From assembly GCA_022778745.1 (NCBI GenBank), contig JALFSR010000002.1:1-64000 (forward strand): DNA of 64,000 bases. Reading direction: 5' to 3'. The notes beneath the pieces were generated by a model. It saw nothing but the letters and a program-made list of their open reading frames with translations. It searched no databases and was not told the origin of the DNA. Numbering within the stretch: position 1 is the first letter of the stretch; the number at the start of each line of letters is the position of its first letter. This DNA comes from Clostridiales bacterium (GTDB lineage Bacteria; Bacillota; Clostridia; Lachnospirales; Lachnospiraceae). Positions 28,420 to 34,066 of this stretch are shown piece after piece. A program made the position numbers and the translations under genes.

Positions 28420-31400
28420 ATGTGGAAGTATAGTGTAAAAAGACCATATACGGTTATTGTGGCTGTGCTGATGGTTTTAATATTAGGGGTTGTTTCGTGG
28501 ACAAAAATGACAACGGATTTGTTTCCATCGATCAGCCTTCCTTATATGGTTGTTATGACAACTTATCAAGGCGGAAGTCCAGAAGAAGTAGAGTTAATTG
28601 TAACAAAACCGATCGAACAAGTGATGGCAACACTGGATAATATTGAAAATATTACATCTGTCTCTTCACAAGGACAGTCTACTGTTATATTGGAATTTGA
28701 TGATTCTGTTAATATGGAGTCAGCGACGATTGACACGAGAGAAAAACTTGATTTAATTTCTGCTTATTGGAATGAATCAGTTGGAAATCCGATTATCACA
28801 AAAATTAGTCCAGATATGATGCCAATTATAACAGCGGCGGTCGATATGGAGGATAAATCAAGGGAAGAGTTAAGTCAACTTGTAAATGATGAATTGATAC
28901 CAAAATTAGAAGGAGTGAATGGTGTTGCGAGCGTATCCGTCAACGGAGATGTTGAAAAAGAAATTGAAGTGGTGATGGATCAAAAAAAGATTGACCGCAT
29001 TAATGAAAAAATGAAAAAAGTAGTGCAGGATCAGATGTCTGAAGCACGTAAGCAGTTAGAAGAAGCACAGAAACAATTAGATAGTGGAAAAACTGCATTA
29101 AACAGTCAATCAAGCTTATTTTCTGATGGCTCAATTGATTTAAGCCAGGGAATGCTGACTGGAAAATTAGAATTATTAAAATCAGAAATTCAAATGGCTC
29201 AGATGGAAAGTCAGTTACAAGAAAAGGGAGCAGAAATTCAGCAGATGGAGTTTGTTGTCACAGAGATGGAAAAAGTGCTGAATACGACAAAACAAGAAAT
29301 TGCAAAAAATGAAGCGACTGTGACAGCATTGGAGCAAGAGGCTGCTAAACTTAATGCAGAAAATGCAAAAAGGGAAGAAGAATTAAATCAAAAGAAGGCA
29401 GAGCTAGAAAAACAGATTGCAGAACTTCAAAAGCAATTAAAAGACAATGTGCAGAACATTCCAGATTCTAGTGATAAAAAAGATGCGAATGATAATGTGC
29501 AGGCAACAGCAAATCAAGGTACGATCGCTGCACAGCTTGAGACATTAAAGGCACAGCTTCAGCAAGTGATTGCAGATCAACAGGAACTTGCATTGAAAAA
29601 AGCATCCTATGAAGTAAAGAAGTCTGCGGCAGAAAGTGCGAGAGTAGCAATCAGCACTTCAAAAAATGTTGCAAGCCAGTTAGAAGCACAGTTGAATTTG
29701 ACGAGGACAGAACTAGAACAGGCAAAACAGGCATTAAATACAGCAAGACAGCAGATTCAAGACGGCGGAACAAAGATTACTGACAGTAAAGATAGTTTAA
29801 ATAAACAAGAAAAAGAATTAACGAAGCAGCAGCAGGAAGCACAAAAGAAATTAGAAGAAGCAACTGCCCAGATAAAAGAGGGAGAAAAGCAGCTTGAAGA
29901 ACAGAAAAAAGCGTTGGATCAAGCAGAAGAGAAAGCATTAGAGCAGGTAACATTAGATGGGAAAATCACAAATGAAGTGATTAGTTCTCTGTTACAGGCG
30001 CAAAACTTTAATATGCCTGCAGGATATATCAAAGAAGGCGATACGTCTTATTTAGTACGTGTTGGTGATAAAATTACAGATATTTCAGAGATGAAAAACT
30101 TATTATTGTTTGACCCAAATATGGATGGGATTGATCCGATTATGTTAAAAGACGTCGCGGATATTTCCTATACTGATAATTCTGCTTCCTCTTATGCAAA
30201 AGTTAATGGAAATAATGGTTTGATTTTGTCAATACAAAAGCAAAATACATATTCGACAGCAGAAGTATCGGATCAGTTAGCTGAAAAATTCAAACAATTA
30301 GAGGGAGAATATGAAAACCTGCATTTTACTGCACTGATGGATCAAGGAACTTATATTGATCTTGTCGTAGATTCTGTACTCAATAACTTGCTTATGGGCG
30401 GATGTCTGGCGATTATTATTTTGATTTTATTTTTAAAAGATATAAAGCCGACGGCAATTATTGCATGTTCCATTCCAGTCAGTGTCATATTTGCAGTTGT
30501 ATTAATGTATTTTTCGAATATTACATTAAATGTTATCTCACTTTCTGGATTAGCAGTTGGAGTAGGTATGCTTGTTGATAACTCTGTCGTTGTAATCGAA
30601 AATATTTACCGATTGCGCAGTAAAGGTGCGACCGTTATTCAGGCGGCAGTGTCTGGTGCTGCACAAGTGGCAGGCGCGATTACATCATCGACATTGACAA
30701 CAATCTGTGTATTCGTTCCTATCGTATTTGTAGAAGGAATGACGAAGCAGTTGTTTGTAGATATGGCATTAACGATTGCTTATTCGTTACTTGCAAGTTT
30801 AATCATTGCATTGACACTTGTACCAACAATGGCATCAGGAATGCTCAAACGAGCATCAGAGAAAAAACATCCTCTGTTGAATAAAATGATAAATGGATAT
30901 GACAGAATTATTCGTATTTGTCTCAAACGAAAAGCGATTGTTCTTCTGCTTGTAGTAATTATATTAATTGGAAGTGTTATTGCTTCTCTTTCTAGAGGTA
31001 CAGCATTTATGCCGGAATCTGACAGTAATCAGCTGACGGCGACATTAAAAATGCCAAAAGATGCAAAGATGGAAGATACAACAAAAACTGCAGATGAAGT
31101 GGCAAAACGAATACAAGAAATAGATGGAGTCAATACAGTTGGTGCTATGATGAGTTCTAATAGCTTGATGAGCGGTGGAGGAAGTGATATCCGTTCTGTT
31201 ACCTTTTATGTTGTACTTGATGAGAAAAAGAAAGATACGAGTCAAGAAATTGCAGCAAACATTCAAGAAGCATGTCAAGATATGGATGGAGAAGTGACTG
31301 CACAAGGTTCTAATATGGATATGAGTGCGTTGGGCGGCTCGGGAATTTCAGTGAAAGTATTTGGAGAAGATATTGATACATTGAAAAAGGCAGCGGATGA

Positions 31401-32454
31401 GATTGCAGAAATTGTGTCAAGTGTTGATGGAACAGAGGAAGTATCAAATGGCGTAAAAGACCCGACACCAGAACTGCGCATTGTGATTGACAAAGATAAG
31501 GCAATGAAAGAAGGTCTTACTGTTGCACAAGCATATATGGAACTAAAGACAAAATTAGCACAGCCAGGCTCTTCAACTAGTATTGAAAAAGATGGAGAAT
31601 CGTATTCCACAATTGTCTCATCTGGTGACGAAGCGATGACACGAAAGAAATTAAAAGAATATGAATTCACTGTTACACAGCCAGATAGTACAAACAAAAA
31701 AGTAAAATTAAAAGATATTGCAAAAATTCAGCAGACGGAAACGTTATCTTCTATTAACCGAGAGGCACAAAAGCGAACACTTACTGTGTCAGCATCGATT
31801 GCAGATGGATATAATATTGGACTTGTGAGCAGAGAATTAAATAAAGCATTGGAAGGGTATGAGCCGCCAGAGGGATGCAGCATTGAGATGTCAGGAGAGA
31901 ATGAGACGATTAATGAATCAATGAGCCAGTTAATGCAGATGATGATTCTTGGTATTGCAATGATCTATTTTATTATGGTAGCTCAGTTTCAATCATTTCT
32001 ATCACCATTTATCGTTATGTTTACAATTCCGCTTGCATTTACTGGTGGATTTTTAGGACTCTTCCTCACAGGCAACGAAGTAAGTGTTATTGCAATGATT
32101 GGATTTATTATGTTATCTGGTATTATTGTAAACAATGGTATTGTGCTTGTTGATTATATTAATCAGCTTCGCTTAGAAGGATGGGAACGAAGAGATGCTA
32201 TTATAGAAGCAGGAAAAACTCGTATGCGTCCAATTTTGATGACAGCAATCACGACAATACTTGGATTAATGACGATGGCAATGGGAATTGGAAATGGTGC
32301 TGATATGATGCAGCCGATTGCAATTGTCACTGTTGGAGGTCTGATTTATGCCACAATTATGACATTATTTGTTGTTCCGATTATGTATGATATTTTTGCA
32401 AAGAGAAAAATAAAATCAGTTGACAAACGAGAATTGGAAATATTAGAGGATTAA
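28420..32454 (+). CDS. RND-superfamily efflux permease with large coiled-coil insertion
   Basis: N-terminal MWKYSVKRPYTVIVAVLMVLILGVVSWTKMTTDLFPSISLPYMVV and GLAVGVGMLVDNSVVVIENIYR motif; 1344 aa. Confidence 0.95.
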   Translation: MWKYSVKRPYTVIVAVLMVLILGVVSWTKMTTDLFPSISLPYMVVMTTYQGGSPEEVELIVTKPIEQVMATLDNIENITSVSSQGQSTVILEFDDSVNMESATIDTREKLDLISAYWNESVGNPIITKISPDMMPIITAAVDMEDKSREELSQLVNDELIPKLEGVNGVASVSVNGDVEKEIEVVMDQKKIDRINEKMKKVVQDQMSEARKQLEEAQKQLDSGKTALNSQSSLFSDGSIDLSQGMLTGKLELLKSEIQMAQMESQLQEKGAEIQQMEFVVTEMEKVLNTTKQEIAKNEATVTALEQEAAKLNAENAKREEELNQKKAELEKQIAELQKQLKDNVQNIPDSSDKKDANDNVQATANQGTIAAQLETLKAQLQQVIADQQELALKKASYEVKKSAAESARVAISTSKNVASQLEAQLNLTRTELEQAKQALNTARQQIQDGGTKITDSKDSLNKQEKELTKQQQEAQKKLEEATAQIKEGEKQLEEQKKALDQAEEKALEQVTLDGKITNEVISSLLQAQNFNMPAGYIKEGDTSYLVRVGDKITDISEMKNLLLFDPNMDGIDPIMLKDVADISYTDNSASSYAKVNGNNGLILSIQKQNTYSTAEVSDQLAEKFKQLEGEYENLHFTALMDQGTYIDLVVDSVLNNLLMGGCLAIIILILFLKDIKPTAIIACSIPVSVIFAVVLMYFSNITLNVISLSGLAVGVGMLVDNSVVVIENIYRLRSKGATVIQAAVSGAAQVAGAITSSTLTTICVFVPIVFVEGMTKQLFVDMALTIAYSLLASLIIALTLVPTMASGMLKRASEKKHPLLNKMINGYDRIIRICLKRKAIVLLLVVIILIGSVIASLSRGTAFMPESDSNQLTATLKMPKDAKMEDTTKTADEVAKRIQEIDGVNTVGAMMSSNSLMSGGGSDIRSVTFYVVLDEKKKDTSQEIAANIQEACQDMDGEVTAQGSNMDMSALGGSGISVKVFGEDIDTLKKAADEIAEIVSSVDGTEEVSNGVKDPTPELRIVIDKDKAMKEGLTVAQAYMELKTKLAQPGSSTSIEKDGESYSTIVSSGDEAMTRKKLKEYEFTVTQPDSTNKKVKLKDIAKIQQTETLSSINREAQKRTLTVSASIADGYNIGLVSRELNKALEGYEPPEGCSIEMSGENETINESMSQLMQMMILGIAMIYFIMVAQFQSFLSPFIVMFTIPLAFTGGFLGLFLTGNEVSVIAMIGFIMLSGIIVNNGIVLVDYINQLRLEGWERRDAIIEAGKTRMRPILMTAITTILGLMTMAMGIGNGADMMQPIAIVTVGGLIYATIMTLFVVPIMYDIFAKRKIKSVDKRELEILED

Positions 32455-32455
32455 G

Positions 32456-32643
32456 TTACGGTAAACGCAAGCTTTATGAACAAATTGTAAACAGATAGTT
32501 CCCTGAGAAAATATAGAGGTTACTTTTGTTTAATCTCAAGATTTGTAAATATTTAAAGCTTAATTCAAGCTTATGTTTTTGTATTACTTCAACAAAAAAA
32601 GCCTTGATTTTTTGTCGAAAAGAGAGATATGCGTTTACCGTAA
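32456..32643. mobile_element. MITE-like element (188 bp)
   Basis: Perfect 14-bp TIRs TTACGGTAAACGCA (32456-32469) and TGCGTTTACCGTAA (32630-32643), flanked by direct repeats GGATTAAG (32448-32455 and 32644-32651); no ORF. Confidence 0.85.
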
Positions 32644-32661
32644 GGATTAAGTGGGAAAATC

Positions 32662-32690
32662 TTGACAGAATCAGGGGTTTCGTGTAAAAT
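32662..32690 (+). promoter_or_regulatory. Sigma-A-type promoter of the CorC/hemolysin-like gene
   Basis: TTGACA-N17-TAAAAT at 32662-32667 and 32685-32690. Confidence 0.75.
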
Positions 32691-32770: not shown

Positions 32771-34066
32771 TTGGATTCGAGTGACGTCATACAATTGATT
32801 ATGTTGCTCATTTTATTAGCCTTTTCAGCAATCTTTTCTTCTGCTGAGACTGCGTTAATGACATGTAACCATATCCGCTTGCGTTCTATGTTTGATGAGG
32901 GAAACAAGAAGGCGGGAAAAGTATTGGATATGCTGGAAAACAACACTGACAAGATGCTGAGTGCGATTTTAATCGGTAATAACGTAGTAAATTTGTCAGC
33001 ATCCTCCCTTGCCACAATACTTGCGACAAAACTGCTTGGAAGCAGTGGTGCAGGTATTGCAACTGGAATTTTAACGTTACTTGTTTTAATTTTTGGTGAG
33101 ATTACGCCAAAATCTCTTGCTACGATATCTGCGGATAAGCTTTCATTGGCTTACTATGACTTTATCCATGCATTGATGGTTATATTGACACCTGCTATTT
33201 TCTTTGTGCGTATTCTTTCAAGAGGCTTATTACTCTTGTTAGGAGTTGATCCAGATGCGAAAGCGGAGACGATCACAGAAAGTGAACTGCGTGCGATGGT
33301 AGATGTGAGCCATGAAGAAGGTGTGCTTGAAAGTGATGAACGCAAGATGATTAAGAATGTATTCGATTTTGGAGATTCTCAGGCAAAAGACATTATGATT
33401 CCTCGTGTGGATGTTACGTTTATTCAAGTAGATTCAACATATGATGAACTTTTAGAAATATTCCAGGAAAATATGTTTACACGATTTCCTGTATATGAAG
33501 AAAGTACGGATGATGTGATTGGTGTCATTAATATGAAAGATGTATTGTTATATCGTCAAGGAACATCATTTTCGATCCGTAATTGTTTAAGAGAAGTTCA
33601 TTTTACGTACGAACATAGTTCTACATTAGAGCTGTTGCAAGAAATGAGAGAAACAGCATCCAATGTTACGATTGTGTTGGATGAATATGGCGCAACAGTT
33701 GGTATGATTACATTAGAAGACTTATTAGAAGAAATTGTTGGAGAGATTCGTGACGAGTATGACGGGGACGAAGTAGAGGCGATCCAGAAAATAAGTGATT
33801 ATGAGTATAGCATTGAAGCATCGATGAAACTGGATGATATTAATGATTATCTGGAATTGAAGCTTCAGTCTGAAGACTATGATACACTTGGAGGGTTTAT
33901 TATTGAACTGTTAGATCGACTTCCTCATGAAGGAGAGGAAATATCTTATCGCAATATGACGTTTAAAATTCTTCAGGTTGAGAAGAATAGAATTGATCGA
34001 ATACAGTTAACGATTCATCCAGAATTATCTGAGAATAAAGAGGAATACTTGGCATCAGAAAAATAA
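32771..34066 (+). CDS. Hemolysin/CorC (CNNM plus CBS) family transporter
   Basis: CNNM domain (AIFSSAETALMTCNHIRLRSM), CBS pair (DIMIPRVDVTFIQ..., VTIVLDEYGATVGMITLEDLLEEIVGEIRDEYD), CorC_HlyC C-terminus; TTG start. Confidence 0.95.
   Translation: MDSSDVIQLIMLLILLAFSAIFSSAETALMTCNHIRLRSMFDEGNKKAGKVLDMLENNTDKMLSAILIGNNVVNLSASSLATILATKLLGSSGAGIATGILTLLVLIFGEITPKSLATISADKLSLAYYDFIHALMVILTPAIFFVRILSRGLLLLLGVDPDAKAETITESELRAMVDVSHEEGVLESDERKMIKNVFDFGDSQAKDIMIPRVDVTFIQVDSTYDELLEIFQENMFTRFPVYEESTDDVIGVINMKDVLLYRQGTSFSIRNCLREVHFTYEHSSTLELLQEMRETASNVTIVLDEYGATVGMITLEDLLEEIVGEIRDEYDGDEVEAIQKISDYEYSIEASMKLDDINDYLELKLQSEDYDTLGGFIIELLDRLPHEGEEISYRNMTFKILQVEKNRIDRIQLTIHPELSENKEEYLASEK

Follow-up and report, generated by a model that had tools for sequence, protein, structure and literature searches.

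A gene-less MITE, probably moved by an ISAs1 transposase, with constant spacing to predicted sigma-A promoters in a gut Lachnospiraceae bacterium

What moved a 186-bp element without genes into the space between two genes of a gut bacterium of the Lachnospiraceae, and what determined the exact position at which it came to rest? In the window (the whole stretch of DNA analysed, 64,000 nucleotides), a gene for an RND efflux permease of 1344 aa (28420..32454, + strand) is followed by one for a CNNM/CorC-type transporter of 431 aa (32771..34066, + strand), and a MITE lies between them at 32457..32642 (+). Its terminal inverted repeats (TIRs) are 13 bp long and perfect, with TACGGTAAACGCA at 32457..32469 (+) and the same sequence read on the minus strand at 32630..32642; this end motif also occurs on insertion sequences (IS) of the ISAs1 family. 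Outside them stand two copies of a 10-bp target-site duplication (TSD), AGGATTAAGT, at 32447..32456 and 32643..32652 (both +), the left of which includes the TAA stop codon of the permease (32452-32454), leaving the reading frame whole and the gene intact, as an earlier note on this DNA had seen. That note had described a TIR- and TSD-flanked insertion of 188 bp with 14-bp TIRs and an 8-bp TSD. The insertion is real and the sequences quoted are present (TTACGGTAAACGCA occupies 32456-32469 and recurs in reverse complement at 32630-32643, with GGATTAAG flanking either end), but the boundaries were set one base off at each end. Reading outward from TACGG...CCGTA, the flanks are A-GGATTAAG-T on both sides, which is AGGATTAAGT, and because the base preceding TACGG is C, A or G in other copies, the outer T/A is assigned to the TSD and not to the TIR.

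The element has no coding capacity, its longest stop-free stretch being 55 codons, in agreement with the earlier reading. As single-stranded DNA it folds far better than shuffled sequences (z = -5.3), chiefly via its TIRs. An A/T-rich hairpin within it (32588..32619) reaches -11.7 kcal/mol as minus-strand RNA, and 3 of 200 shuffles fold equally well. No terminator-like site was found in the MITE, the hairpin not being a canonical terminator. A role as a regulatory RNA or terminator was considered and rejected, given a hairpin that mildly beats shuffles on one strand only.

The assembly of the same genome (2.43 Mb in 109 contigs) holds 13 segments of the MITE, 95 to 100% identical to one another (mean, 98.6%). 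Two pairs of segments (C92/C79 and C59/C103) are halves of single insertions, giving at least 11 insertion sites. Perfect TSDs at other copies are 9 or 10 bp long (AATTTTTACC, GATAGATGA, TTAATTAGA, GAAATTGAGC, and ATACAATGAA). The MITE was not found in 97 relatives, seven of them genomes of the same genus, and the permease-transporter junction lacks the element in two of these (G003 and G004). Their intergenic spacers are longer and diverged, so these junctions fall short of the base-exact empty sites that the earlier note had called for; the downstream promoter (AAAATCTTGACAGA...TGTAAAAT) is kept in both. Rather than single-copy and conserved at this site in all relatives, the state of affairs that the earlier note had set against its own reading, the MITE is recent and multi-copy. 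In being short, gene-less, flanked by TIRs and TSDs, present in near-identical copies, and likely to share only its ends with an autonomous element, it is like bacterial MITEs generally, and it is itself an ordinary kind of element.

The parent had been said to be absent from the window, and the 14-mer TTACGGTAAACGCA indeed occurs nowhere else there, even with two mismatches allowed. A search of the own assembly for the TIR, likewise with two mismatches, returned the MITE copies, one remnant of an IS end, and matches at control level only; no intact autonomous ISAs1 element with exactly the MITE ends was found in this fragmented assembly, whose ISAs1 finds are that remnant and an element with different ends (L068). 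The remnant, at C66:20337-20349, is a surviving ISAs1-type end (CAGGGTAAACGCATGATTTTATGAATTCC) resembling the IS end of genome G036. Of 250 Lachnospiraceae genomes searched for YASGGTAAACGCA, two proved rich in it, G247 (59 matches) and G036, with zero matches of the control in each. The matches in G036 are IS ends at contig borders, where every contig breaks off some 75 bp inward of the IS end and the interior is missing from the bin. Those in G247 belong to a second gene-less family of Lachnospiraceae elements (L075-L087), which have CACGGTAAACGCA ends. They are like the MITE in their left ends of CACGGTAAACGCAAGCTTT and their many copies, but differ in their interior, many of them being longer. 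A scan of the collection with the IS-end pattern found none in viral contigs and, in genome contigs, only G036 and chance matches; the sole match in Clostridiaceae was discarded as lying at the start of a tyrosine integrase.

The way to a complete relative led through genome G099, where an ISAs1 transposase gene has its stop codon 24 nt ahead of the end CACGGTAAACGCA. This protein led to another Lachnospiraceae genome, G323, with a complete IS of 1186 bp (L134) that ends in CACAGTAAACGCA/CACGGTAAACGCA, the left end one base different, within a 10-bp TSD (ACTTAGTACT). Its transposase of 339 aa carries PF13808 and PF01609 and matches the ISAs1 model NF033564 at 3.2e-112 (374.8 bits, the cut-off being 70). 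The search for an IS with the same ends, which the earlier note had suggested, was thus rewarded. YASGGTAAACGCA or one-base variants of it occur on ISAs1 elements of G323, G099, and G326, and ISAs1 elements of Pseudomonas carry the end CAGGGCAATCGCATGA. Further ISAs1 elements, gathered by transposase and delimited by TIR and TSD only, terminate in sequences of this kind (CACGACAAACGCATGA, CAGGGTAATCGCTTA, and CAGGGCAATCGCATGA) and have 9- to 10-bp TSDs across four phyla (Bacillota, Pseudomonadota, Cyanobacteriota, and Actinomycetota), a TSD length without exception among the elements that could be delimited. By model score, the transposases of the elements sharing these ends belong to ISAs1. 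The family (NF033564; PF13808 plus PF01609) has ends of the form YAsGGtAAaCGCA (commonly CAGGG..CGCAtgA) and TSDs of 9 to 10 bp, like those of the MITE, and both CAGGG ends and a 10-bp TSD are recorded for a published member, ISArsp11 (PMC6305408). ISAs1 elements carry a transposase gene, whereas the MITE does not, and beyond the TIR the MITE and the IS share almost no sequence, save that the left end of the MITE extends to AAGCTTT, common to the G247 elements and the IS of G326. Because ISAs1 elements share its end type and TSD length, the MITE is most readily explained as a dependent of an ISAs1 transposase, a link drawn from these two likenesses. The earlier note had already called the element MITE-like and suggested mobilization in trans, a view that gains support from the multi-copy dispersal and from the ISAs1 elements sharing its ends.

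The site is most informative in a respect that the first reading missed: the element lies at a precise distance upstream of a predicted sigma-A promoter. The promoter predicted to serve the transporter gene consists of a -35 box, TTGACA (32662..32667, +), and a -10 box, TAAAAT (32685..32690, +), with a spacer of 17 nt and 11 of 12 consensus matches; the -35 box, kept in G003 and G004, begins 9 nt from the TSD and 19 nt from the end of the element. At all six MITE sites with both flanks available, a predicted sigma-A promoter has its -35 box 8 to 9 nt outside the TSD, with 9 or more of the 12 consensus positions matched at this gap, compared to 2.5% for background positions in the same flanks. 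Among sites with one flank, 1 of 5 has such a match. Promoters here are predictions, being matches to the consensus, and the position-wise table of them, picked by score, is illustrative only; the spacing result is not circular, because ends and TSDs were called without reference to promoters. This fixed distance distinguishes the MITE from bacterial MITEs generally, and target choice is the part that specialists would not expect.

The same placement recurs in autonomous elements. A promoter stands at the fixed distance in 18 of 26 Lachnospiraceae ISAs1 cases (two of them from viral contigs) against a local background of 3.2% (binomial p ~1e-21), and other 4-nt windows of the same flanks give a mean of 1.0 and a maximum of 3 of 26. 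The distance from element end to -35 box is 17 to 19 nt, and the elements of G247 and G036, scored on one-sided flanks, peak at exactly 19 nt. In a one-contig genome (G389), all six delimited ISAs1 copies score at least 8. For elements from another family of the phylum (G711), taken together with a streptococcal satellite phage, the count at a threshold of 9 is 4 of 6. Outside Bacillota (Pseudomonadota, Cyanobacteriota, Actinomycetota, and phages; n = 10), the counts are 3 of 10 at a threshold of 8 and 1 of 10 at 9, a signal that is at most weak, and the claim is therefore restricted to Bacillota. On the transposase tree the promoter habit does not form a single clade; it appears on several divergent branches within Bacillota and is therefore not a quirk of one IS.

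Orientation is constrained as well. The promoter lies on the 3' side of the transposase gene in 20 of 20 scored Lachnospiraceae cases (p ~2e-6), although in two of them (L176 and L188) the match lies at a different spacing and could be fortuitous. Both sides are used by the ISAs1 of G711, whose two ends are nearly identical, and by the MITE with its perfect TIRs. The gap on the promoter side stays at 8 to 9 nt with 9-bp and 10-bp TSDs alike, a constancy that points to anchoring at the promoter-proximal joint.

We therefore propose, with a probability of roughly 0.88, that the MITE owes its movement in trans to a DDE transposase of the ISAs1 family, an enzyme that inserts just upstream of sigma-A promoters. 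The proposal builds on what is shown here (multi-copy dispersal, ends, TSDs, the family identity of IS sharing these ends, and fixed spacing to predicted promoters); from this we infer both that an ISAs1 transposase was the mover of the window MITE and that the spacing reflects recognition, at integration, of promoter DNA or of bound RNA polymerase. The transposase would recognize the end YAsGGTAAACGCA and act by cut and paste, with a stagger giving a TSD of 10 bp, sometimes 9 bp. A synaptic complex holding both MITE ends would dock at the promoter and join the ends to the two strands 9 to 10 bp apart, so that between the promoter-proximal edge of the TSD and the -35 hexamer there would be 9 nt, or in some cases 8, placing this edge at about -45 relative to the transcription start. 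Established promoter geometry places the alpha C-terminal domains of RNA polymerase on this region, and the simplest idea would be that the complex docks on polymerase or on the bent DNA that polymerase prefers. Only DNA upstream of about -55 would be replaced, and insertion would be nearly harmless because the promoter and both neighboring genes stay whole. At the window locus, the TSD would regenerate the stop codon of the permease, and the promoter of the CNNM/CorC-type gene would keep everything from about -45 downstream. If ISAs1 elements do target promoters, this would explain how at least 11 copies are tolerated in one genome.

An alternative hypothesis is that harmlessness alone accounts for the pattern, with insertion occurring anywhere and survivors remaining just upstream of promoters. 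Gene-breaking copies would indeed be purged, and several Lachnospiraceae ISAs1 elements, few in all, have no promoter match at the fixed distance. Tolerance would permit a broad range of distances, however, and the gap is held at 8 to 9 nt, as the contrast of 18 with at most 3 of 26 cases attests; nor would it make the same IS end face the promoter in every oriented case, or give different IS subgroups and the MITE a common spacing. We consider selection without targeting improbable.

Still less probable is that the MITE belongs to a Mutator-type ISLre2 element (p-MULT 3). Insertion next to promoters, of the sigma-A type in the case of ISLre2, has been described for p-MULT 3 (ISLre2 and TnGBS) and part of p-MULT 4 (PMC3942029), and the own genome has six UPF0236/ISLre2 matches. 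ISLre2 and TnGBS resemble the elements analysed here in their short, constant spacing above the -35 box and, as in the oriented ISAs1 cases, turn one particular IS end toward the promoter; a published link between asymmetry of their inverted repeats and orientation parallels the ISAs1/MITE pattern (PMC3942029). They differ in transposase family (by the models used) and in dimensions: p-MULT elements have inverted repeats of 18 to 39 bp with a conserved terminal C and duplications of 8 to 9 bp, with p-MULT 3 inserting 15 to 17 nt from the -35 box (PMC3942029), compared to 13 bp, 9 to 10 bp, and 17 to 19 nt here. No MITE-like end was found in the flanks of the ISLre2 genes checked in the own genome, and the MITE end motif is found on ISAs1 elements, contradicting an ISLre2 parent. 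ISLre2 was accordingly rejected as parent: its promoter habit fits, but its ends and TSD do not. Separately, one ISLre2-type transposase frame of 509 aa is open in this genome (L062, C106:15588-16781), with several broken copies elsewhere. Least credible of all is the 8-bp-duplication transposase family of the earlier note, to which the repetition of GGATTAAG on both sides had pointed, since that repeat extends one base each way to a 10-bp TSD, the six two-sided copies have TSDs of 9 to 10 bp, as fits ISAs1, and other copies vary at the base that had been counted into the TIR.

Having set these aside in favor of an ISAs1 transposase with promoter preference, we speculate further, and at somewhat less than even odds, that oriented, fixed-distance insertion upstream of sigma-A promoters may be a general, possibly ancestral property of ISAs1 in Bacillota, independent of the Mutator-type ISLre2/TnGBS elements, acting via promoter-bound RNA polymerase (the alpha-CTD region, about -40 to -60) or bent DNA, and inherited by MITEs that would seed the upstream edges of many promoters. 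No report of promoter targeting by ISAs1 was found in the open-access papers searched, and the fixed spacing is new as far as we could find, which falls short of proving that no report exists. A large IS survey found ISAs1 over-represented between convergent genes, and the passages of it that were retrieved contain nothing on promoters (PMC9208149). Both ISAs1 and ISLre2/TnGBS place the promoter-proximal strand-transfer point about 7 to 9 nt above the -35 box; if the proposal holds, two different transposase families have each found a way to insert without breaking anything, and comparing the two enzymes could reveal what is read, be it RNA polymerase, its alpha C-terminal domain, or the shape of promoter DNA. 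ISAs1 elements and their MITEs would then mark promoters in Bacillota genomes, and the transposase could be used as a promoter-tagging tool.

Some further observations were made in passing. In the own genome, the ISAs1 element L068 (605-2525, contig C59) has ends of TAGGGTTGTTTCA and an extra ORF of 192 aa, and it adjoins a predicted TTTACA-N17-TATAAT promoter lying 9 nt plus the 10-bp TSD away. At C66:20337-20372 (L013, 1477-1512), the ISAs1-type end is arranged head to head with a MITE end across a 10-bp spacer (AACTTTATGG), the kind of layout that a circle junction with abutted ends, or a pair of insertions into a single site, would give. One MITE copy (L005, C66:12833-13008) has its 9-bp TSD intact on both sides and a right end lacking exactly the outer 10 bases (GTTTACCGTA). 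Finally, the RND permease upstream of the window MITE (28420-32454) contains a coiled-coil-like stretch of about 320 aa rich in K, E, and Q (residues ~190-515), which the Pfam and NCBIfam models skip.
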